A DNA stretch of 64,000 nt from Lutjanus erythropterus. Taxonomy: Eukaryota; Chordata; Actinopteri; Lutjaniformes; Lutjanidae. Shown piece after piece: positions 33,259 to 51,200 of the stretch (the first letter of the stretch is position 1; the number at the start of each line of letters is the position of its first letter). The notes under the pieces are model-generated. The model worked only from the letters and a program-made list of their open reading frames with translations. It did no database searches and was not told the origin of the DNA. The stretch spans positions 29,843,555 to 29,907,554 of the forward strand of contig CM034591.1 of NCBI GenBank assembly GCA_020091685.1. The letters run 5' to 3'. Made by a program: the position numbers and the translations under genes.

Positions 33259-36200
33259 ACAAAGGAGGAGGGGTTTGGGATGGACATGGGACCGGGGAGA
33301 TACATATTTTTTACATTAAGAGAAAATGTATTTGAAAATATGCTCAAAAAAGATGAATCACATGTTCTCTGCATTGCCAAAAAATAATATCACATTAAAT
33401 TCGACACATTAACCTTAAAAATTAATAAACAACATCTGGTGTATTAGTGACTGATACAACACATTTCTTGCTTGCCAGCTTTTTGTAATTTGAAACCACT
33501 GCTTATCTCCAACATTTGAGTTGATTTCTCTGATTTAACCTAAGCCTTATGCCTGTAGAGTGAGGGAGCAGGTATGAAGAAATTAATTTATTGAATATAT
33601 CAATATGATTCAAATGTGGTCTGTTAAAGGGTCATAATTTCCAACTATAAATCTACATTTCTTGGATGGTTAGCTTATGGTCACCTCTATATGTCAGTCA
33701 AATAATGTTGAAGCATAGTTAAATCCCCAGTGTAAGCTTAAATCAGAGGACTTCACTGCACACCCTATTGACAGGTGTGTAAGAGCATAAACTCATCTGA
33801 AAAGAAGAAAAGGAAGCGTTGGACTTCAGTACACAGCACGTGTGATGAAAATGTCACTGTTGCACACCCTTCGCAATCTGAAGAATTGTTCTTGTGCTGC
33901 AATCTAGATATTTTGGATATGAAGTGGTGCACAGGGAACCCCCCTATTAGAATTTCACTACTGATAAATACTAAACTTTTGTCATTCTCATTTGTAATTG
34001 CCCTTTAGTAATAAGCTTGATTGCTGATTGCAAATTGACTTGGGTGCTCCTTTGATTAAATGCCCTTTTTTAATTGGCTGTTGTAACAGAGACACGAGTA
34101 TCAATGTTCTTTGTATTGTTTGTGTGCCACGTCTGACGCAGGTCTATCACAAAAGATTGTGTTAGTGTTGACAGCGTGCCAGAGTTCCACACTTCCTTTT
34201 CAGTCGAGTGCTGTCTCTGTGCTCATGTGGTTATGTATATGTCTGTGTATACTGTGCATTGTTACCAGTGAAAGGCTGGAGGCTAAAATCTGTGGCATGT
34301 GTCTTCCTTCCACTATACACCAACACTGAATCGTTGCCTCTGCAGTTGTACCGGCTTTCACTGGTGGGACAGCCATGTAAGTAGACCCTAACAGAACGGT
34401 GGGAGGCAACAGCGAGGTCAACACTTTGACTGACAGGGGGGTTTGTTTCATCACTTCGTATGGTAAGACCCCTTATGCAACCTCCTAGGCCTGCAAAAGA
34501 GCAAAGGAGAAGAGAAAGAGACCGGAGGAAATGAAAGAGAGAAAAAGGGGGAAGGAGAGAACAAGGGGAAAGGGGAGGAGAATGTGAGAAGAGCGCATCT
34601 TTCTGAAAACTTTGTTTAATGCTTTCCTCCATTTTACATTTCAAATTGTTTAAATAAGCTCTCATCCACTCTCATATTAACATCAAACTCTTTCCTTTAT
34701 CTCCTGAAGATAATTAGGCCACCAGTATTTTGAAATTTAACTGAATTTGCTATGTTCTTAAACTTAAACTGAATAAGATACTGCAAGCAAACACCAGTAT
34801 AATCACATTGATTCATGCTGCTCTGGCCAGACAGAGCAAGTTACAGATGAGATGTTAACTGCCATGTTTGACCAGTGTCAGAAAACGGTTTATGAGGACA
34901 GTTTAGCTGCACAGCCTGTGTATACTACACCAAACACTTTTTCTTGTTCAAACACCTGCCATTTTGATTGTGGGAATGTACTATTACTATTGTTGTGTAG
35001 ATATACCTCACCATGTTTGTGACTTTGGATGTCCAGAGCAGGATGTTTGAGCTCCATGGGCACGCCCCCTAAGTATAACGGCGAATCAACTCTCAGCCTC
35101 ACTGCTTCTCGCACTCCCCTCGTCTCCTCTGCCCAGTCATTGACTGAAGCAAAGATGAGCGAGCCGCGTTTTGCCAACGAAAGCGGTTTCCAGTCACCAT
35201 CACAGTAGCTAAGCCCCACCCACATGCTGAGTTCAGTCATATGACCTTCAGAGACAACAATGAAGGACAGGAGACCAGCTTCTAGCTCCACCTAAAAATA
35301 CAAACCAAAAAACACAAAATATCACGAGTTGATCCCTCTGTCATGCTTTTCTAAAGTTTTTTTCAATATTTAAAAGACAATTTTAAATGCGTCTCTGCTT
35401 CTTACCAGCATGTAGTCTTCAGTTTGTGTGTTGTATGTAAAGAGCAAAAGTGCATTGAGCTGGTCTGTTCTGAAATCCATAGAAATTTCAAAGTCCTGTC
35501 CTCCACTGAATACATCTCTGCCCATCTCCAAGTAACCTGAAACACAGAGGAAAAAAACGACTACATACCATTTTATTACAAGGCAAAGGGCTAAAGAAAG
35601 AAAGCAACTTCTTTGACTGTGCTGAACATGTAAAGACATTCTGTGCCTTTTTTTTTCCAAATACAAAGTTTGAGTCCCACTCAAAACGTGTGGCATGTTT
35701 AAGGTTAAAATGTTCTGTCACACATTGAAAAGTGACAGACAAATAAACGATCGGATGAGTAGGCATTTCGCCAAGCAATAATGGAGGAAATGTACACTGA
35801 TGAACCTGATCTTTCACACGGAGACCAATTAACTTATCATCATCATATTTATCAACATGAAACAACAACCTCATTATCACCAACATCAGCAGCAAGCATC
35901 TTATTAAGATATACAGTGTTGGCAGTGTATTAGGAGGGATAGCATTCACTCGAAGTTTTATCAGAACATAGCTTACTCATGAAAAAAGACACTCTGCAAT
36001 GCTATTACCCTGCTGCATACAGGAATATTTCTATATCATAGCACACAATATTACACTATGACCTTGATGGGCATAAATCTCAAACAGATAAGTGAAATAA
36101 AAAAATCATATAACTAATCAAATAACCTTTTCGGTCATCACTAACAATCAATACAATCCTACCATGACCCAGAAAATGGGCTCCATCCACAGTTTGAACA

Positions 36201-39200
36201 GGACATCCCTCCCAGTTTTCATACATTGACTCTTTCTTTGTGGCTGTTGCCCAGTCCAGAGATTTCCATTCAGCTGAGGGGCCGTCAGTCATTTTAAAAC
36301 TCACGTCTCTCAGGCAACCGGAAAAACCCTGCTGCACTAGCTGGGCATCACCTGGTGAGACAGACAGGAATAAATAACATAACTTGAAAAGTTTTTACTC
36401 CATGCTTCTGAACTGCCTAAAAACACAGAGCTCAAGTTAGTTCATGTTGTCATAGGCTCAGCCTGGTGACTTTAAAAGGTTTATGTCCCTTCCTAAATTA
36501 CACTTGAGGATGATAAAATATGCCAATGTAATTCAGGGCTGTAGCACTAAATGACAGGGGAGAAGACAGGGAAGAATTTTGGCAAAGTACTAGTTCCTCC
36601 TTTGGGAATCAATAAGTTGTAAGCAGTGTTGGGACTAACGCGTTACTGTAACGCAGTAACTCAGTTAACGTTACTACATGATGCGTTACTCCGTTACTTT
36701 ACGTTATTTTTTGTGTAGTCTCGGCTAGAGACTGAGCTGCAGCCAGAGCCGTGTAGTCCTGAATCTTCCTGTGTGTGTGTGTGTGTGTGTGTGTGTCAGC
36801 GGGGAGACGGGAGAAGACACGCCGTGTGGGCGTGTCTGTTTACAAGACTGGTATCATCATGGCGTCGGCGGCGGAGCCCAAGTCAAGTTTCTTTACATGG
36901 AGATATTCTCACTACTTGACCTTTGTCGAGCACAAAGACAAGAACGTTTTAGTTAAATGTAAGTTCTGTCTTGGATCAAAGATCTTATCTACTGCCCAAA
37001 ATAACAATTCAAACCTGTTGAAACACCTACAGAAACAACATGCTGCGACGAAGCTAGTAGCTAAGAGTACAGACACAGACTCTGATGCCACTTCACCTCC
37101 ACCACCTCAGCAACAGCGGCTGGATTTTAACCGAGGGACTGACTGCTCCTGCTAACCAGGAGTTGATAAAGCCATTGCAAGGTATGTTGTAGAAGACATG
37201 CAGCCAATTTCTATTGTGGAGTCGCCCGCTTTCAGGAAGCTAGTTAGCATGATACCGGGCGTCACACGGCAAATGGGACGAAACACTTTTTCTAAGTACC
37301 TGGAGAGTGAATACGCAAAAATGGAAACCGAGTTAAAGAAAACTTAACTCAAAACTTAATGGGAGACCTTTTTTTTCATAGTAACTAAAAAGTTACTTTT
37401 CACAGTACTGCGTTACCTTTTGGTGTAAGTAATCAGTAAAGTAACTGAGTTATGCCTGACTGAAATCAGATATTCATCATTTCATTTAGTTCTGCCACTA
37501 GGGGGTTTCTGTCTCATTAAAATAATACCAAAAGGCGTAGATTGATAATGTCGTAAAGTAGAAATATATCATGGGAGTTGTTGTCTTCATTGTTGAATTG
37601 TGTTAAAGTCACATTCACCAACCAAAAATATGTACAGTCTAACCCTCATTAACTAACCCACCCTTTTTTTTTTTTTTTTTTTAAAGATTATTTTTTGGGC
37701 CCTTTGCCTTTATTATAACAGGACAGCTGAAGACATGACAGGAAGAGAGAGAGAGAGGGGAAGACACACAGCAAATGGGCCGGAGGCAGAAATTGCAGCC
37801 ACCGCAGAGGCCCGACAGCCCCAACACACGCTCCACCAACCGAGCCACAGGGGCGCCCCTCATCACCCTTACTGATACATCCAACTACATCCAGCCACAA
37901 ACAATCATGTACGGGAAACACTGAAGTTTCAAACAAAAATACATTAATAAGGCCATAACTAAAAATTCATTCTGCATGTGATTTTTGGTGTGTGCCAGCT
38001 CCTTTGAGTGGCACAGGCTCACCCTGACACACCTGTGGCCACGCCGTCGCTCTGCTGTCTGAGCGGCTGCGTTTCAAGCCGGTTAATGATGAACTGGAGT
38101 CAGAGCTTATAACTGCTCTCAGAGGTTTCACCTGTTCAGCAGTTGTAATCGCCACACATTTTCCCCTCACTGTAAACCAGAATAAGTTAGCAGTACTCAA
38201 AAAAATCAAGGCTATCAGTTGCCACATTTTTTTTCAGTTCATAATCTCAAAAGTTGGAGGTTATCAGAGCTTAAATATTTGGAGTTAGTATTACATGTAC
38301 TTGATTACAGTGAAATTATTGATTAAGCCAACTCAAAGTAAATACAACTTTCACTCACCTCCCTCCTTTCAATAAATTAATATAAGTTAATGGAACTGAA
38401 TACTTTTTATTAATTGTTTCATTTTCAATAAACTTTACATAAATTGAAAATTATGAGTTTAATAAACACAAAGAAAGAAAATTCTACTGGCACTCAACAT
38501 TTTGAAGTTAGTAAAACTTCTAAACAAATTTTAAGTCACTACTTATTAAGATTAATTTGAGCAGTGAATTTCTTGTTGACTCAGTAATAAGATGGCATGT
38601 CAGAGTTGGACATGTTTGTCTTTCATATCATATTTATACTGTATATTATGTAAAATGTTTGCTAACAGTAGTTGACTCTCAGTATAAACTTTAAAAAAAT
38701 GTATGGGTTGCTGACACGACACTTTCCCCGTTCATTTGTTCTTTGCTTAATTCATGTTGTAAACGTAAAAAAGGATCAAATCTGCCTCTTCTAAATCCAC
38801 TCTTGATATTTTGATAACCAGCCTTTATTTTCTGTTTTTAGATGTTAGGGCAATAGGTCTTTATTTCTCATGTTTTGTACAGTCTTTCAAAATTTGTTCT
38901 CAAGCCACAAACTCAAACTTAAACAGTTTCAGTAGTGACATGAAGAGGCAGGACCATATTTTATTACATTAAGATTCATGATTTACAAAGAAAATACAAA
39001 ATAAATGTAATCTTTTTTTTAAATTTCACTCAGAAAAATATCAAAAATGTCTTTTGAAAAACAACACTGGCAACATTGGTTTAGTGTCATTTTCACAAGT
39101 TGAAATGTAGAGTTTAGTGTTAGGCACAGGTCCCATAAAGTTCTCACTAAATGATTACCTTGTATATATTAAGCTTACTGCTATCTGAAATATTATTTAG

Positions 39201-42200
39201 GGTTTTATTGATCTTAGTAAACATCTAACACACTTCAAACGCTTTTTGACAGTGTTTTTTGGTTGTGGGACACAGCAGTTTGTTATGAAGCAGTTCAATC
39301 ACCACTGCTGCCCTGCTGGATGAACACAGCTGATGGAGGCCCAGAGGTAAGTGAGGTCTGCTTGTTACCACAAAGTTTCTATCTTGATTTTTTTGGCTAG
39401 CAGGATGTCAAAGTGAGTGGATGAATCAGCATTCATTTAAAAAATAACAACACCTTGAATTTGCATGCTATTTTACATACTGTTCTAGAGTTCTGTGACA
39501 TCATTCCGATGTCATGAATAGAATCAGGTGCTCAGAATTCTGGCCTCATTCCCCTGCAGGCAGCCTTTGGAGAGGTAAGACCTCTTTACAGCTCTGATAA
39601 AACTACTTTTTGATTTGACCTTTTCTCTTTAGGTTGAACAGTGTTGTGTTGTGGGAAAGTACATTTATTTCCCCTGCGTTATTCTGTCAAATAAATTTGT
39701 TTTTTCATTAGTTACACACCAAATACCATTTCAGTCAGATGTACATCTTTTGCTGTAATCAGGGGACGCAAATGTACTTTTTGTGTTGCACAAAACAATT
39801 TCAACAACTACATTTTGCTGAAATTTAAAATTATTTCATGTGTATTTCACTAAATATGAATTCTCAATTCTTTTTGTTGCTCCTGTGAGCACTTTGCTTG
39901 ATGACAAAGTAGTTTTTGTCTTGTCATGTTACAGAAAAAGTTTCTCTTCAACTGATTTTGGAAAACGTTGTTCAGAGAGTCATGTTGTGTTTTCATTTTT
40001 CTCATTATTGTCCCTGAAAGTGGTCATACTGGTAACTGCATTAGTTGCAACAACAGCTAATGATAGTAATGATTTTGGATGTTATCATCATTAACATCAT
40101 GAATAGTTGATTTTCATTAAAACTACATTATGGTCATTCATCTTTGGAGTGATATCTTAAAACTGGTGGTGGACAGAGTACTGACAATCTATACTACTGT
40201 TGGGTTGCTAAAATATTACTCATTTACTAGAAAAATTACAGGTGTCAGAGTAAATAAAAATACAAAGTATTTGTTGCAGAAACTACTCATAGTATTAGTT
40301 ACTTTTTCACCATTGATGTCACAGTCACCTCTCCAAACTAGGTTTACAGATTTTGTGCATTTTCCTGAACCAATAGCTGAAAATGCTAACAATTGATTAA
40401 TTAATCATTTATATGATACAAAACATGTTTTGTAACTGAGGTGCAGTGACTGCCATGACTGTTGATTAAATATCCACGAATGCATTTTTAATTAGTTAAA
40501 TTCTTAATAGCAATTGATTGATTAATGATTAATCATTAATATCCGTACTCCAGCCTTTAGTTTGGTTTAGTTTGTGTGTCTTTGTTTTCACTGGATTGTT
40601 TGTGAACAGATCACCTGGCTGGTTAATAAAATGTAGATGAAATGTTTGGAAATGAATTCAAATTGTACTCAGTACTCAATCATGATTTTTTCATTTGTTA
40701 CATACCAAATACCATTACAGTCAGGTTTGCATCTTTTGCTATGCACTCAAAAAAATGTTGTATTTACTTTATGTCAACAAATTCCACTAAACTGAGTTGT
40801 GTTAGACATAATTGAATAATATTCTTTAACATGGCAATAACTAACTTATATGCAAAAAGACTGTATTAAGTAATCTCAACATTATCTGCTCAACTTAATA
40901 GGTCAGTGTCCAGTTAACTAAGCAGACAAACATATATTCAACATAATGTCTTCATTGAATATGTTTATTAATACAACTTAAAGATATTTCATTACACTGA
41001 TTTAAATCACTTTTGAAGTATAACTTAACTGTTGGACCTCAACTGTATTTAGTGTTATTCCTGTGAGCAGTTTGCTTGATCACAAAATACTTTTTCTTGT
41101 CATGTTGCAGAAAAACAGTGCTTTCATTGTAGCATAGTCATGACAGTCATGGTCTGTTTATTATTATTGTTATTATTATTGTTGCTGTCATTATATAGGA
41201 AAACCCCTGGATGATGAGGGAAAAAAGCCATTTATATAATTTATTTTCAAATTTTTGGTTCAGAGAAGATCTTAAAATAAAAATGTCTTTTATGTAAACT
41301 GCGTAACATGCAAACTACACATTTGTAGAAAATTGTACAGTTAATTCTCATTTTGTATATTTTCAGACAGTTTTGGAATCATTTTCCTCGTCCCTATAAA
41401 CAATCATTTGTGACATAATAAGAAGGTTAGATTGACTGTTATGATTTTTTTAACATCTACACTGTAATAATATCTTTTTTAATTAAAAAAAAAAAGTTTA
41501 CACAGTTTAGTTACTAAAGATTAAAATCTGGACATTTTTTTAAAAGTAATTTTTCAGATTCATGGTATTTTGAATCAAATTTTTCTTTTTGAAGGGCATA
41601 AAATGTATCATACTAATTTAAACATTAGTCTTGAGTGATGTCTTTAGTACCTGTGCTTTTATTGTAAAAATTATATATAATGACACATACAGACCAGAGG
41701 AATTTTGCTTGGTTCATTTTAGCTCAGATAGAAAGACTGATTAAGATAGAAAGAATTTGTTCAGTTTCTTAATTGAAAAAATATCGTGATTACCAGTGAA
41801 ATCACCACTGTGTGTGTTTGTGTCTGCAGTTCATCACCGTCGGTACAAGCCAAGAGAGAGAATGTTTCGTTCCGTTCCTGAAAATCCCCCTGCAAGACCT
41901 TGGTCTTCAGGAGATACAAGGAGGGGTGTGAGACCTCCATCTCCTGGAGACCTCGTCCTTCCCACGATATCGAAGGAGCACAAGCGAAGGGGTGAGAGCC
42001 CTTCGACTTGTGGTAACATCGTCCCTTTCTTGATCTGGGAGGAGCACGGGCGAAGGGGTGAGAGACCTTTGTTCTGTGGTGACAACAGCCCTTCTATGGT
42101 TGTGGAGGCCCTGGGACGAAGGGGTGAGAGACCTTCGTCTCCCGAAAACACCGAGCCTTCTACCACCTGGAGGAAGCATGAGCAAAGGGGTGAGAGACCT

Positions 42201-45200
42201 TTGTCTCATGGAGACACCGGCCCTTCAGCCACCTTGAAGGAAGGAAGGGGTGAGAGACCTTCATCCTTCAAAGACAACCAGCCTCTTACCACCAGGAGAC
42301 AGCAGAGACGTAGAGGTGAGAGCCCTCCGATCTCTGCAGACAACAAGCCTTGTACCACCAGGAAGGCTCCCAAAAGCAGAGGGAAGAAGAAATATCTATC
42401 ACCCTCAGGAAGCATCTCCTCTGATTCCCGAGACTTGGAATTTGAGGAGTTTCCATCTCTCTTCTGTGTGTCGGAGGAGCCAAATCAGACTCCTGAAAGG
42501 TCTCGCTCTCCTTCTGTTCAGGATGAGGACAGAGAAAGTCAGGAGGATGAAGAGACAGGAACACCAGAGCTGGATGAAGAAGAGAGTAAAAGACAGGCCC
42601 GATTATTTGTCCAGCGTTGGGCCAAGAGAATGGCGGAAAGAGACAGAGTGTGGAACGAAGAATATGAAAGACAAGAGAGAGAGAAAAAGGTGAAGGAGAG
42701 AGAAAAGCAAGAGTGGCTGGAAAGACAATGGGAGGACTGGATGGCACAGGAGAGAAAAATATGGGAGAAGGAGCAGAGGCAACGAGAGAAGTGGGAGAGG
42801 AAGGAGAAAGAAAGGCAGGAGAAAGAGGAGAGAGACAGAGAGAAAAGGGCAAGGAAGGAGGCAGAAAGACAGGAGAAGCAGGAGAGGGAGAGAGAGAAAA
42901 GGGAGGAGAAAGAAATGCAAAAGATGGAGAAAAAGGAGAGAGAACGACAGGTGAAGGAAGAGAAGGAGGCGAGAAAAAGACAGGAGAAGGAGGAGAAAGA
43001 AGAACTTAAGAGGGAGAAAAAAGAGAGAGAAAGACAGGAGAAGGAGGAGAAGGAGGAGAAGGAGGCGAGAAAAAGACAGGAGAAGGAGGAGAAGAAGGAG
43101 CGAAAAAGACAGGAGAAGGAGGCGAAAAAGGAATATAAGAGGGAGAAGAAGGAGTTAGAAAGAAAGGAGAAGGAGGAGAAGGAAAGAGAGAAAAGGGAAC
43201 GGAAGGAGGCAGAAAAACGGACGAAGGAGGAGAGAAAAAGACAGAAGAAGGAGGACAGAGAATGTCAGGAGGGTCAGGGAGCAGAGGACAAAAAGGAGAG
43301 AAAAAGGCAGGAGAAGGAGGAAAAAGAAAAAGCAAAAAAAGAGAGGAAGGAAAGAGAAAAGCAAGCCAAAGAGGAGAAAAAACGGCAAAAAGAGGAGGAG
43401 AAAGAAATGCAGAGGAAGGAGAAAGAGGAGACAAAAAGACAGGAGAAAGAGGAAAGAGAGAGGAGACAGAGGGAGGAGAAGGACAGAGATAGTCAGGAGC
43501 AAGGAGCAGAAAAAGAGAGAAGGAGTCTCTTCACAAGATTCTGCATGTGTCTGCTCGAGTGTGAGAGGGAGGCCACAGTAGAAGCCCTGAACAGGAGCTA
43601 CGAGGACGAGTGGTTCATTCTGCTTAATGGTAAGAAAGTTCATTTTCATTCTTTTGTATAAAGTTTCACATGTTGTAGGAGCATGCTTTACCTATCACAC
43701 TCACTTTTAATTGCTTCTAATCATGCAGGGTGAGAAAAAATACTTTAAAATGTATTCAGTAAGTGTGGTCAGTAACATAATCCAAGTATCAAAATATTAG
43801 AGTAATGTTGGTTACTTTTGGATTACCTCAGTATTATTATTATTATTCTTATATTAGCCCAACAGTGTTTTTAGGGCTGCAACTAACAATTATTTTTGTA
43901 ATCTTTCAATTGGTTGATTATTTTCTCAATCAGTGAGTTGTTTGGTACATGAAATGTCAAAAAATGGTGAAAATTGTTGATTAGAGTCCAAGGTGACGTC
44001 CTCAAATCTCTTGTTTTTCTTACAGTATTGTGCATACAAAATTTGGTAATAACACTATTGCCTACTTAAAACTGATTTTTTTCCCATGAAATGTGGTGGA
44101 GTAGGCTACAAGTAGAAAGTGACAAACTCATAATAGGCTACTCATGTAAAGTGCCTCTAATTTGTGGGATACTTAAGTACAAGAGTAATGTACATTTCAC
44201 CACTGAAAAAAGCATAACTTCTAAGTACTTGGTTTGTTTAAGTGAACTCAACTCAAGTACACCGAGTTTGGCAGATTTTTCAACCCCAGAGTACAAGTAA
44301 CTTCTGTCATGATTATTTTCATTATTGATTGATCTGTCAACTGTTTTCTCCATTATTATTAGTTATTTGGTCCATCAGATGTTAGTAAGTGGTGAAAAAT
44401 GTTGATCAGTGTTTCCAAAAGTCCAAGATGATGCCCTCAAATGTCTTGTTTTGTCCTTGACTTAAAGATATTCAGTTTACTGTCAGAGAGGAGTAAAGAA
44501 ACCAAGAAATATTCAAGAGGCTGAAATCTGAAAATTTGGGCTTTTTTTATACTAAAAAATGAATGAAAACAATAAATAAGTTATCAGAATAGATGCAGAT
44601 TAATTTAAAAGTCATTCATTAGTAGATTAATTGTTGTAGTGCTTTATGTTCGTTGTCAGGCTTATTAGTTTGTTCAGCTGTACCGTCCTTTGTTGTGTGC
44701 AATTTATTGATCGACTGATTGATTTAAAGACAAAAGTCTTTTTTTGGCGTCCATAATGAAATGAGTGTTTTAAAACTGTACTCCTACTAATAATTCCCAA
44801 TTTTATTAAATGTCTGTCATCTGATTACATGTTTTTTATCTGTACTACTGGAATACAGTCACCTTTTTTTGTATCCTGATTATGTAATCTTATTACATGC
44901 AGTGCATTTCTTCCCAAGCCTGTTTATAATAATGTCTACTATATATGAATATTTGATATTTACTTTTAAATAAGCAAATGCATTCACATTAGTTTCATGT
45001 GTTCTGTAAAACATAAGAAATGATACAAATAGGATCTGTACAACTGGACTCCAGACTAAACTTTTCGTATGTTTTCAGTTTCAGGACTCAGCATCCTACA
45101 GCAGACCCAAAGGATGAGGAGGGAGTATGACAGGAGGAGGCAGCTGTGGGTGTGTAAAAGAAGAGCAGAACGGCAGACGGAGGAGCTGGAAGAGAGGCAA

Positions 45201-48200
45201 AGGCAAAGACAGAGAGAGGGAGAGAGTAAAAGAGAGAGGAAGGTGTGCAGCACTCCCAGATTATTCAAGAGGGCACAACAGGCATTTAAGCTTCGCAACC
45301 GTGTAAACGTCTACCAGGAAAACATTCCAGAAGTGTCAAAACTGAGGTAAAGCATTACGTGTTGTCCTTACCTAACCTAACCTAACCTAACCCTTACTTA
45401 ACTTAACCTTACTAAACTAACCAAGGCTACCTAATCAGCCTAACTAGGCTAAACCCCTGATGGTAACAGGGGATGACATGCAGCAAAGGGGCTCTAGTAC
45501 AGAGGGCAAAGCCTCCAACTTAGTCCTCCAATCTTTCTGCTTTGACCAAAACTGGACTGTGGCCATAATGTGCCTTAAAATGGCCAATTTAACCTCTCTG
45601 AACCTCCATGAGACCTCTGTCAGCATCCAAAACCAAAGATATCACCTATGCTACTGCAGAAGCTGCCTCAACAGAGGCCAAACTCTCCTCTCAGCTCTCC
45701 ATCACTCCCTCCTCCATGGTGGACAAAGCCTCCTCTGACTGAAGCCTTTCTGACCTCCAAGAGACCTCCTTCAGCATCAGAAAGTAAGTCCCATCTTCAA
45801 AATACGATGATGATTTAAAATTTCTCATGAATTGGCAGGACAATGCAGTATATTTATTCTGGTGAACAGGATGAAACCTGGAAATGTCTTTGCTTTTCTT
45901 CAGGTGGGCAAAACCTCTCTCAAATCCTCCATCAGTCCCTCCTCCACAGAGGGCGAATCCTCCTCTCAGGCCTCCGTCAGTCCCTCCTCCACAGAGGGTG
46001 AATCCTCCTCTCAGGCCTCCGTCAGTCCCTCCTCCACAAAGAGCAAATCCTGACTGAAGTCCTTCAGTCCTTCAGGTCTTACCAAAACCTATTCGTGGCC
46101 TTACTATACCTTAAAATGGCCTCTGTGAGACCTCCTTCAACATCAGAAAGTAAGTATCACTTTTAAAATACTATGATGAAGTAAGATTTTTCATGAATTG
46201 GCCTGACAACACAGTAAGTTTTTCTGGTGAACAGATGATTAAACTATGTCTTCTTTTTTCTTTACATGAGCTCAGTCCTCAAAAAGTCCCTCCTCCACAG
46301 AGGGCAAAGCCTCTCCTCAGGCCTCCTACCTGACAACTCCTGCCTTCCTAGTAATCTGGGATCAGTAAAGAAAGCAAGTCTCATCTTTAAAATAGTATGA
46401 TGAACAAAGATTTTTCATGCATTGCCCTGACAATACAGTAAGTTTTTCTTGAGAACAGAGATTGAAACCTGGAAATGTATTTCCTTTTCTTCAGGTGGAC
46501 AAAACCTCTTTCAAGTCCTCCGTCAGTCCCTCCTCTGCCACAGAGGGTGAATCCTCCTCTCAGCCCTCCTGACTGTGGTCTTACTGCACCTTAAAACTGG
46601 CCCCCATGAGACCTCCTTCAGCATCACAAAGTAAGTCCCACTTTTAAAATACTATGATAATTTAATTTTTTTCATTCATTGGCAGGACAACACAGGAAGT
46701 TGTTCTGCTGGACAGAGAATTGAACTGGAAATGTCTTTTTTGTTCTTTAGGTCAGTTCTGTCCTCCATCAGTCCCTCCTCTGCCACAGAGGGCGAATCCT
46801 CCTCTCAGCCCTCCTCTCAGGCCTCCGTCAGTCCCTCCTCCGCCACAGAAGGCGAATCCTCCTCTTAGCCCTCCTCTCAGGCCTCCGTCAGTCCCTCTGC
46901 CGAAGAGGGCGAATCCTCCTCTCAGCCCTCCGTCAGTCCCTCCTCCGCCACAGAGGGTGAATCCTCCTCTCAGGCCTCCATCAGTCCCTCCGCCACAGAG
47001 GGCGAATCCTCTCAGCCCTCCGTCAGTCCCTCCTTTGCCAAAGAGGGCGAATCCTCCTCTCAGCCCTCCATCAGTCCCTCCTCTGCCAAAGAGGGCGAAT
47101 CCTCCTCTCAGCCCTCCATCAGTCCCTCCGCCACAGAGGGCGAATCCTCCTCTCAGCCCTCCGTCAGTCCCTCCGCCACAGAGGGCGAATCCTCTCAGCC
47201 CTCCATCAGTCCCTCCTCTGTCACAGAGGGCGAATCCTCCTCTCAGGCCTCCGTCAGTCCCTCCTCTGTCACAGAGGGCGAATCCTCCTCTCAGGCCTCC
47301 GTCAGTCCCTCCTCTGCCAAAGAGGGCGAATCCTCCTCTCAGCCCTCCATCAGTCCCTCCACCACAGAGGGCGAATCCTCCTCTCAGCCCTCCTCTCAGG
47401 CCTCCATCAGTCCTCCTCTGCCACAGAGGGCGAATCCTCCTCTCAGGCCTCCGTCAGTCCCTCCTCTGCCAAAGAGGGCGAATCCTCCTCTCAGGCCTCC
47501 GTCAGTCCCTCCTCTGCCAAAGAGGGCGAATCCTCTATTCAGGCCTCCATCAGTCCCTCCGCCACAGAGGGCGAATCCTCTATTCAGGCCTCCATCAGTC
47601 CCTCTGCCACAGAGGGCGAATCCTCTATTCAGGCCTCCATCAGTCCCTCCGCCACAGAGGGCGAATCCTCCTCTCAGCCCTCCGTCAGTCCCTCCTCTGC
47701 CAAAGAGGGCGAATCCTCCTCTCAGGCCTCCATCAGTCCCTCCTCTGCCACAGAGGGCGAATCCTCCTCTCAGCCCTCCTCTCAGCCCTCCGTCAGTCCC
47801 TCCTCTGCCAAAGAGGGTGAATCCTCCTCTCAGGCCTCCATCAGTCCCTCCTCTGCCACAGAGGGCAAATCCTCTTCTCAGGCCTCCATCAGTCCGTCCT
47901 CTGCCAAAGAGGGCAAATCCTCTTCTCAGGCCTCCATCAGTCCCTCCTCTGCCACAGAGGGCGAATCCTCCTCTCAGCCCTCGTCTCAGCCCTCCGTCAG
48001 TCCCTCCGCCGAAGAGGGTGAATCCTCCTCTCAGCCCTCCGTCAGTCCCTCCGCCGAAGAGGGCGAATCCTCCTCTCAGCCCTCCTGACTGTGGTCTTAC
48101 TGCACATTAAAACTGGCCCCCATGAGACCTCCTTCAGCATCACGTAGTAAGTCCAACTTTAAAAATACTATGATAATTTAATTTTTTTCATTCATTGGCA

Positions 48201-51200
48201 GGACAACACAGGAAGTTGTTCTGCTGGACAGAGAATTGAACTGGAAATGTCTTTTTTGTTCTTTAGGTCAGTTCAGTCCTCCATCAGTCCCTCCTCCACA
48301 GAGGATAAAGGCTCTCCTCAGAAAAACTCTTCCCTGCACTCAGACCTGCAGCTGCTATATTTGATTTATATCACTTGATGAAAATAAATAACAACAAAAC
48401 CAACATTAGTTTCATTTCATTTATTCACATTTACGAATGTAGATTTTATTGATATTTTATCATGTAAGAAATTAGTGATGTTGCTTCTTGCCACTTAGAC
48501 AAACTCTTTAAAAAACGGCTTTATATGGTCGCATACAGCTAGGTGAGAGATGAAACTAAAAAACACTAAAGTAGATGCATGAGAGGACCCTATGATTTGA
48601 TGAATATGAAAATGACATGAATCATATGTTAAGTCACAAGAACTAAACCCAACCAAACAGCCATGTGAGCTTTTGGTATTTGACAGCATCTCCACCACCA
48701 AAACACTAAAGAAGAGTGTATTTTGGGTGTTTGTCACAGTTGACAGGTTTGTACAAATTTCTAACAAGCAGCACTGAAGCTGCTCTGGAGGCTCGTAGTG
48801 GCCAAACACCAAACAATGATATTTTTCCTTTGAATTTTCACCCATCTTTATTTCTCAGATATGATATGAGAAACTCTTCTCTGACCTGCAAGAAAACCAT
48901 GAACAGTAACAACAGGCATCAGTGTCCAGGGCAGATCATTTATATTTTGACCTGGATCTACATTAAGAACCAGGATGGAAGATTATTGAAATGCTTTATA
49001 TTTTTTTAAAGTTGCTACATCACAAGGTAGAAACTCTGCTTTACAAGTAACAGTCAAAATTCAGTCTCTAAAATGAAAGTACTTGTTATCCATAATGTCC
49101 ACTTTTAGAGAGTTAAAATATTTAACATTTAAATATTGAATTATCGTGTTGGCAGCATTCTGATATTGTAGCTGGTGACGGTGGAGCTCATCTGACCTAC
49201 TTCATACACTGATGAGTAGTTTAACCTCTAACAATGCATCATATTTTATAATATAATGTGTTCTGTATGAAAAATCTTAATCTTAGTCACACGGTCCAAT
49301 GTAAGCACCTTCTTTGTCTGTGTTGAAACACTTTTCATTCCATTTATCTGCAAAGTTACTTCTAATTCAAGTCAGATAGTTAAAATCTACAAGAATAGTA
49401 GCCTAGTCTCCCGAAAAAATGGAAAAAGACTTTTGCTTTGAATGCAGATAATGCCAGACTTAAAAAAAAAAAAATCTTAAATAGCATTATTAGATACTAC
49501 AGCAGTGATGTGATTACTTTGAGGTGTGCTTTTAATTGAGATACAGTGGGTTAATATGAAGTTTGATGAGTTTTTGTAATGGGTGGGGGCAATTGTAACA
49601 CTCTGATTTCTGTTTCTGTTATGTTTCTAATATCAAAAGATGTGAAAAATAGATGTGTATTACAATTACCCCCAGTCTTCCCTACATTAAAAGTACATTA
49701 GGAAGTGACCTTTTAATGGTATGAAGACTAAGAATGATTACACAAAGCCAAAAAACACTAGAAGACATATTTCAATGTATATGTGGGCATCCAGTGTTGG
49801 TGAAGGCACTTCGAAAGCAGATTATTGGTTGGTTGGTTATTGGAAAGAGGTTATTGGTTAAAAATGAACACAAACAACCTATGCTTATATAGCTGTTGCT
49901 AGCTAGCATATGAGATTTTATCATGGCTGCAAGATCCACACAAGCCATGTCTCCCAGTGGAAGCACCATGTTTATCTGTGTCGACATCATACATTTCCAT
50001 TGGACAATGAACATATTTAACTAAATTTAAATGTAAAATTGCTTTTAACTCAATTCAAATCATTAAAATCTAATTACTACTAGAATACATGCCTAGTCTT
50101 CTGCAAAAAAATGAAATGGACTTGTGCTTTTAATGCATACAATACCTGACATCTAAAAGAATTTGAACCATATACAAAAAATTTAATGTCACTATTTAGT
50201 CAGTAACCTGGATATGCAGCCATGTTGCAAGTACTGGGTGCAAGTACCTCCACCACCTCATCAACAGCGGCTGGATTTGAACTGAGGGACTGACTGCTCC
50301 TGCTAACCAGGAAAAAGTTGATAAAGCCATTGCAAGGTATGTTGTAGAAGACATGCAGCCAATTTCTATTGTGGAGTCGCCCGCTTTCAGGAAGCTAGTT
50401 AGCATGATACCGGGCGTCACACGGCAAATGGGACGAAACACTTTTTCTAAGTACCTGGAGAGCGAATACGCAAAAATGGAAATCAAGTTAAAGAAAACTT
50501 AACTCAAACTTAATGGGAGACCTTTTTTTTCGTAGTAACTAAAAAGTTACTTTTCACAGGACTGCATTACCTTTTGGTGTAAGTAATCAGTAAGGTAACT
50601 GAGTTACTTTTGAAGTAGAGTAACTAGTAATGGTAACTAGTTACTGGTTTTCAGTAACTAGCACAACACTGGTTGTAAGTTTATCAAATCTATTTAAATG
50701 TTAAAAATGATAAACAATAACCCATAATAATTGTTTAAATGAGAGTGGGTGATGTTGAACCTACCTGAATCCTCTCTTAGCAAAGTAAAGTCTTCAGGCA
50801 GCCCTCCAATGAACACCCCTGTGTTTTCACCAATAATGGTGCTGCCGCTGGAAGCTGATGCGCTTCCTGGTGGTGGTGGTGGAGGAAGGATGGTGGTGTT
50901 ATTGAGGGAGGGAAAGAGTAAATATGAAATCAGAGCATTTAGGGAACAAAGAGGGATGGTATACATTAGAATAAATGGATGGACAATATAAGAGAGAAAC
51001 GGTAAGCAGAAGATAAAAGGCAAAGAAAAGACCATCTAAAAGAAAGGTTAAGCTCGTGCAGTTTCTGTCACGATTTACCCAGAAGAAAGAAAATGCATAA
51101 CATATCTGAGAACAACTGAGTGTGTTTGTGTGTGTGTGTGAAGCAGTACTTTTCTCATCAGACACAGAGTGGCTGGGATTAACCTGACTAATACCTCCAT

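Follow-up and report, generated by a model that had tools for sequence, protein, structure and literature searches.

A candidate hAT macrotransposon of 14 kb in an intron of an usherin-like gene of Lutjanus erythropterus

Introduction

How can a segment of 14 kb lie between the two ends of a hAT transposon family whose copies are about 1 kb long and yet carry a single target-site duplication (TSD)? The question is raised by a 64,000-nucleotide stretch of the 937.6-Mb genome of the fish Lutjanus erythropterus (assembly GCA_020091685.1, contig CM034591.1; C1:29843555-29907554), hereafter the window, in which a hAT-ended segment occupies an intron of a usherin-like gene. An earlier reading of this DNA (the original prediction) described a hAT-bounded unit with a perfect 8-bp duplication that carries a gene into a usherin intron. 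In the present analysis, the ends, the host intron, the inner DNA and the hAT family were examined across the genome. One macrotransposon-like hAT insertion, in which the outer ends of two hAT fragments would have moved together, emerges as the probable explanation, with a confidence somewhat better than even.

Results

Ends and target-site duplication of the segment

The hAT-ended segment spans positions 36624-50671 of the window (14,048 bp) and is bordered on both sides by an exact 8-bp TSD, GTTGTAAG (Table 1). The left end, CAGTGTTGGGACTAAC, begins at 36624, directly after one TSD copy, and the right end, GCACAACACTG, stops at 50671, directly before the other. Short terminal inverted repeats of the hAT type are present (CAGTGTTG / CAACACTG). 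Counted on both strands, GTTGTAAG occurs in the window only twice, at the two ends of the element, compared with a mean of 3.14 in shuffled sequences. At the window's base composition, any one pair of ends would show an 8/8 match by chance in about 1 of 46,000 cases. Because the TSD is exact, the origin of both outer ends in one hAT insertion event is supported. Sequence inspection found no hAT terminus at either inner junction (37452 and 50246).

These results agree with the original prediction in the existence of a hAT-bounded unit of about 14 kb with a perfect 8-bp TSD, in the single insertion of its outer ends and in the bare inner junctions. The predicted span, 36616-50679, denotes the same unit but takes in both TSD copies, which do not belong to the element proper. 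The predicted chance figure of about 1 in 65,000 was correct in that a chance match is improbable, but its value changes once base composition is considered. The concern raised there, that the TSD might be a coincidence of a common repeat, is countered within the window by the confinement of GTTGTAAG to the two ends.

The host intron

The element lies inside an intron of a minus-strand gene with LamG domains. Among ten minus-strand open reading frames (ORFs) scanned, three give LamG matches that pass the cut-off (one on the low side of the element and two on the high side), one shows a weak fn3 match below the cut-off (E=0.0089) and six show nothing. The two ORFs that flank the intron gave no domain match when scanned singly. 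When the exons are joined across the intron, they are in frame, and a LamG match (PF02210) just under the cut-off extends over the junction (residues 7-51; E=0.00023; score 22.1 bits, cut-off 22.9). The host intron is 14,413 bp long and would shrink to 357 bp if the element and one TSD copy were removed, which corresponds to an approximately forty-fold enlargement. The in-frame join over the site, the LamG match over the join and the otherwise 357-bp intron were counted in favor of the macrotransposon reading. The predicted "usherin intron" is thereby retained as an intron of a LamG gene, from three ORFs and the joined exons with their sub-threshold match, whereas the name usherin (USH2A) is taken solely from the original prediction.

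Two fragments of one short hAT family

The segment is bounded by two hAT pieces in direct orientation, both of which have lost their inner ends. The right piece lacks approximately the first half of the short element, and the two pieces overlap by 358 bp (37095-37452 corresponds to 50246-50606). When the left piece was searched against the genome, 44 matches were listed (40 scored of 161 candidates), including 39 long ones elsewhere at 89-97% identity; a reference copy of the family is 938 bp long. Both ends were found in 25 of the 27 other family copies examined, with TSDs that match at 8/8 positions in 14, at 7/8 in 3 and at fewer in 8; two of these 25 copies, L014 and L015, share flanks and are not independent. 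Copies with an 8/8 TSD are 865-995 bp long. The 8-bp TSD by which members of the hAT superfamily, here non-autonomous, are recognized is therefore seen at the window element and at family copies alike, and the 8-bp duplication ascribed to hAT elements by the original prediction is real for this family. Possible remnants of a hAT transposase are a zf-BED match (E=0.00073) and a DBD_Tnp_Hermes match (E=0.0018), each slightly under its curated Pfam cut-off; an ORF in the left piece (36763-37155) has a sub-threshold BED zinc finger match. By sequence similarity, both window pieces are classed as fragments of one abundant short non-autonomous hAT family.

Larger units of the same family elsewhere

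The same family bounds larger units elsewhere in the genome. The loci L002, L009 and L022 have the same right flank and different left flanks. The true right end of L002 is found 2.2 kb beyond the inner one, which yields a composite of 3,140 bp (C10:32459926-32463065; L002 1451-2388 plus L085) with the exact TSD TTAATCAG. This C10 composite, read directly, still holds an internal hAT right end that was left unused. Its distal right end is approximately 76% like the window right end over 109 bp and therefore comes from a related hAT variant. Read by eye, the extra 2.2 kb of the C10 composite resembles a coiled-coil protein on the opposite strand.

A second composite (G000; C6:38283535-38287611) measures 4,077 bp and has the exact TSD AAAATAGC. 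Its left end at 38287611 follows AAAATAGC, and a pattern search placed CAACACTGAAAATAGC at 38283527-38283542 on the same strand. The interior of the C6 composite is known from a 97% alignment and a 201-base stretch, and the alignment suggests that an internal hAT right end is kept here as well. Among 40 scored candidates, at least six loci, including L002, join the hAT right end directly to the shared flank. The two composites with exact TSDs support the movement of larger units by their outer ends elsewhere in the genome, in line with the outer-end mobilization invoked by the original prediction. A further hAT copy, L003 (C1:48608474-48612308), has no matching 8-mers at its adjacent ends and is a possible additional composite.

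Inner junctions and spacers

The DNA between the hAT pieces (12,793 bp) consists of a 171-bp spacer, a 12,200-bp cargo and a 422-bp spacer. No genome match crosses either inner junction among the matches listed (40 per junction). The left spacer has no close second copy among the matches listed, only dispersed-repeat matches of up to 82%. The right spacer has one 97% match of 234 bp on C18, and its other listed matches are at 72-86% apart from short pieces. Over the 335 bp of inner flank (171 bp on the left and 164 bp on the right), no listed copy exceeds 82% and 86%, respectively. Spacers of this kind would fit relocation rather than copying, given that recent copying should leave sources and cut-and-paste need not. 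The C18 match (L050; C18:12684280-12684513) covers window positions 49848-50081 and, at 97% identity, is unlike the other listed members of the repeat.

The cargo and its relatives

The cargo has at least five relatives in the genome (two on C10 and one each on C1, C3 and C7; 40 scored of 7,053 candidates). The alignments start exactly at 37624 with four relatives and stop exactly at 49823 with four, and the relatives stay alike beyond both cuts. The window cargo is therefore an internal fragment of a larger unit, which is 14.3-16.7 kb long in the four relatives measured. A sharp right boundary of the unit is common to three relatives (C1 and both on C10), and neither a TSD nor a convincing inverted repeat was noted at the unit termini when the boundaries of the relatives were compared. 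The cargo differs from the best relative per segment by 1.2-4.4% (substitutions only), and none of the five relatives aligns to it without large gaps. Ordinary insertion of a transposon into a resident hAT was considered and rejected as a simple reading, since the cargo ends at 37624 and 49823 are cuts inside a larger unit and not shared termini. Moreover, we know of no transposase that a 358-bp target duplication would fit. The original prediction had suggested a search for the cargo between hAT ends elsewhere. Such an arrangement did not appear: no hAT was found around other cargo copies in the stretches fetched for five relatives and for two distant paralogues, where 69 of 69 matches arose only via a TG run.

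The cargo contains an open frame of 623 amino acids that belongs to a dispersed gene family (27 scored candidates gave 49 matches, of which those to distant members are mostly at 65-72%). Over the first 971 bases of the frame (133-971 for the C1 relative), uncorrected pN/pS values are 0.72-0.82 against five relatives, four of which have many small indels and three of which have a stop; the apparent signal of selection on the frame is weak. The coding-looking gene of the original prediction is thus upheld as an open frame within 12.8 kb of inner DNA but lies in a truncated fragment of a dispersed gene-family unit and is no single captured host gene. Charged tandem-repeat proteins form a dispersed family on several chromosomes (L039-L048, L083 and L084), with close members at 81-91%, one at 77% and distant members at approximately 66%.

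The tandem periods in the cargo are mostly multiples of three. Function is doubtful because the peptide of the second array spans a stop and a change of frame in the window copy. In the C7 relative, a 560-residue open frame at the second array reaches the edge of the fetched stretch. The chosen cargo ORFs contain no Pfam family at or above the cut-off. A CCTAA-type telomere-like array is observed within the cargo at window positions 45366-45422.

Table 1. Positions of the element, its parts and the adjoining host exons in the window
Feature	Position	Strand	Basis
Left TSD copy GTTGTAAG	36616..36623	.	Sequence read and window 8-mer count
Left hAT fragment; left end intact, 3' side cut (without approximately the last 65 bp of the short element)	36624..37452, 829 bp	+	Genome search and alignment
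hAT part also present in the right fragment (358-bp overlap)	37095..37452	+	Alignment of the pieces
Left spacer, 171 bp; 37488-37597 like a dispersed repeat at 77-82%	37453..37623	.	Genome search
Cargo, internal fragment of a larger unit (~14-17 kb)	37624..49823, 12,200 bp	+	Alignments with at least five relatives
623-residue ORF; first Met at residue 25, repeat-rich, highly charged	41790..43661	+	ORF and genome search
Coding-like tandem arrays, 45/48-bp units	45926..48086 (arrays 45926-46051 and ~46762-48085)	+	ORF and repeat reading
Right spacer, 422 bp; dispersed repeat at 49848-50181	49824..50245	.	Genome search
Right hAT fragment; right end intact, 5' side cut	50246..50671, 426 bp	+	Alignment
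Right TSD copy GTTGTAAG	50672..50679	.	Sequence read and window 8-mer count
Host exon after the intron, start at 36351	36140..36351 (stretch used in the join)	-	Exon join
Host exon part before the intron, donor after 50765	50765..50861 (stretch used in the join)	-	Exon join

Divergence of the two hAT pieces

The overlap of the two hAT pieces was compared with the variation among other family copies. The copy panels were picked by similarity to the window pieces. The panels for the overlap, likelihood and private-substitution comparisons excluded the window's own loci and L015, a near-duplicate of L014, and shorter partial copies were additionally left out of the private-substitution panel. The overlap contains 15 differing alignment columns; between pairs from the first panel, which comprised 28 sequences, the median is 14. 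When the comparison is restricted to 336 non-CpG sites and set against 46 other copies, the two pieces differ by 6 substitutions. The log-likelihood ratio (same copy minus different copies), computed with a mutation rate set by the analyst and with alleles seen once counted as private, is 0.2. This value lies in the tails of both models: 6% of different-copy pairs score at least this high, and 3% of simulated same-copy pairs score this low.

Private substitutions number 2 in 774 bp of the left piece (26 other copies) and 6 in 426 bp of the right piece (46 other copies; one-sided P 0.027), which is mild evidence that the left and right pieces may have different histories. Overlap site 34, a non-CpG site with G in 33 and T in 13 of the 46 other copies, differs between the pieces. 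A two-copy reading based on 5 family-polymorphic sites among 12 left-right differences was withdrawn because 4 of the 5 are CpG sites. An argument from divergence that the cargo predates the hAT insertion was also withdrawn, as the cargo divergence of 1.2-4.4% is not clearly greater than twice the hAT private divergence (2/774 and 6/426).

Discussion

A single macrotransposon-like hAT insertion accounts, with somewhat better than even confidence, for the structure of the segment. We infer for it a donor locus, a transposase and a single-step move of 14 kb. At the donor locus, a 12.8-kb stretch that already contained a truncated copy of the gene-family unit would have lain between two fragments of the same short hAT family, one retaining just the left end and one just the right end. 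An element outside the window would have provided a hAT transposase in trans, and this transposase would have paired the two outer ends. The whole 14 kb would then have been excised and inserted into the 357-bp intron of the usherin-like gene, and the GTTGTAAG duplication would have been made in this step.

Several observations weigh against this reading. Neither a donor nor an empty site was found in this assembly. The log-likelihood ratio of 0.2 for the overlap does not favor two copies over one, and an uncommon allele at overlap site 245 (T in 7 of the 46 other copies) is common to both pieces. The overlapping pieces jointly make up nearly a complete element, the outcome expected if one hAT copy had been interrupted. 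As for the precedents, they are 3-4 kb long, not 14 kb; the composite flank is found also at loci without a hAT end and is thus dispersed in its own right; and of the four composite loci checked, two showed no exact outer TSD (L009 and L022, looked for among the listed C1 matches to exact CAACACTG).

The main rival explanation, which we regard as unlikely but serious, is gap filling of a resident hAT. A single short hAT would have inserted first and made the TSD, and an internal break would have been repaired from both sides with template switching, leaving tracts that overlap by 358 bp and 12.8 kb of added filler; the overlap step is an extension proposed in this analysis. The two pieces with their duplicated middle are readable as one nearly complete hAT, and the shared allele at site 245 likewise speaks for this rival. 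The overlap divergence (6 at 336 non-CpG sites) is of the same order as that between the cargo and its nearest relatives, and copying of that age is possible. The Pack-TIR survey in PMC8277862 reports 208 hAT cases among 370 Pack-TIRs and attributes most single-copy ones to gap filling. In the screen described there, however, fillers were capped at 5,000 bp and the largest human one is 3,585 bp, compared with 12.8 kb here, and its breakpoint description gives a gap between breakpoints (median 4.6% of transposon size) rather than a 358-bp duplication. Copied filler should also leave sources, but the listed matches to the left spacer and to 164 bp of the right stay at or below the 82% and 86% given above, although 234 bp of the right spacer have the 97% match on C18, and each of the five cargo relatives matches only with large gaps.

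Homologous integration would produce the same anatomy. An extrachromosomal circle or an ectopic crossover partner that carried the cargo and a 358-bp hAT fragment would have recombined with a resident hAT in the intron, which should leave, as is seen here, directly oriented hAT pieces on either side of the cargo that overlap cleanly by 358 bp. In the sequence fetched for the five relatives and for two distant paralogues, the cargo was not found beside this hAT, and we consider this route improbable. Least credible of all are an assembly artefact and a coincidental 8-bp match between two unrelated hAT fragments that flank an old intron. The sequence is known from the assembly alone, but the restriction of GTTGTAAG to the two ends, the low chance of such a match, the otherwise short host intron and the in-frame exon join stand against both.

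If the macrotransposon reading is true, a naturally occurring unit this large in a vertebrate, complete with an exact TSD, would represent a direct route by which short hATs move gene-sized DNA between loci, and short hAT copies would have expanded a 357-bp intron to 14.4 kb. A broader proposal, advanced tentatively and with less confidence than the single insertion, is that one short hAT lineage repeatedly assembles and moves composites (3.1, 4.1 and 14 kb) past internal ends, thereby spreading segments of gene families and rebuilding introns, as a natural vertebrate parallel to Ac macrotransposition in maize. Through the 3.1-kb and 4.1-kb composites of this family, the proposed hAT route can be tested in a single genome.

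Macrotransposition in maize Ac/Ds and short hAT captures in vertebrates are already documented. No vertebrate hAT macrotransposon was found among the titles and abstract starts listed from the open-licence literature, which is not proof of absence. Among the captures described in PMC8277862, the 291 bp taken up by a frog hAT reached three chromosomes, with three TSDs. The window element resembles the animal Pack-TIRs (Pack-hAT) presented in that study in having hAT ends around non-transposon DNA. It differs from them in its 12,793 bp of inner DNA, compared with the 100-5,000 bp that define the class there, and in the duplication of 358 bp of hAT. The parental copy that the study defines (a unique best match with at least 90% identity and 80-120% of the filler length) was not found here by BLAST, in place of the BLAT pipeline of the paper. 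Teratorn, the medaka piggyBac-herpesvirus composite, is likewise a very large composite DNA transposon in a teleost, as outlined in PMC10175614, but its superfamily and cargo are different, and the chosen cargo ORFs of the window element match no Pfam family at or above the cut-off. In maize, Ac/Ds macrotransposition is cited as having mobilized up to 100 kb (PMC3260210), and Ac macrotransposons of 10.3 kb and 28 kb as well as an 8-bp TSD footprint are recorded in PMC9910405. The window element differs from these in its fish host, in the prior loss of both inner ends and in being known from its sequence alone. As in the maize macrotransposons, the outer ends of two hAT pieces bound a large foreign segment within one TSD.

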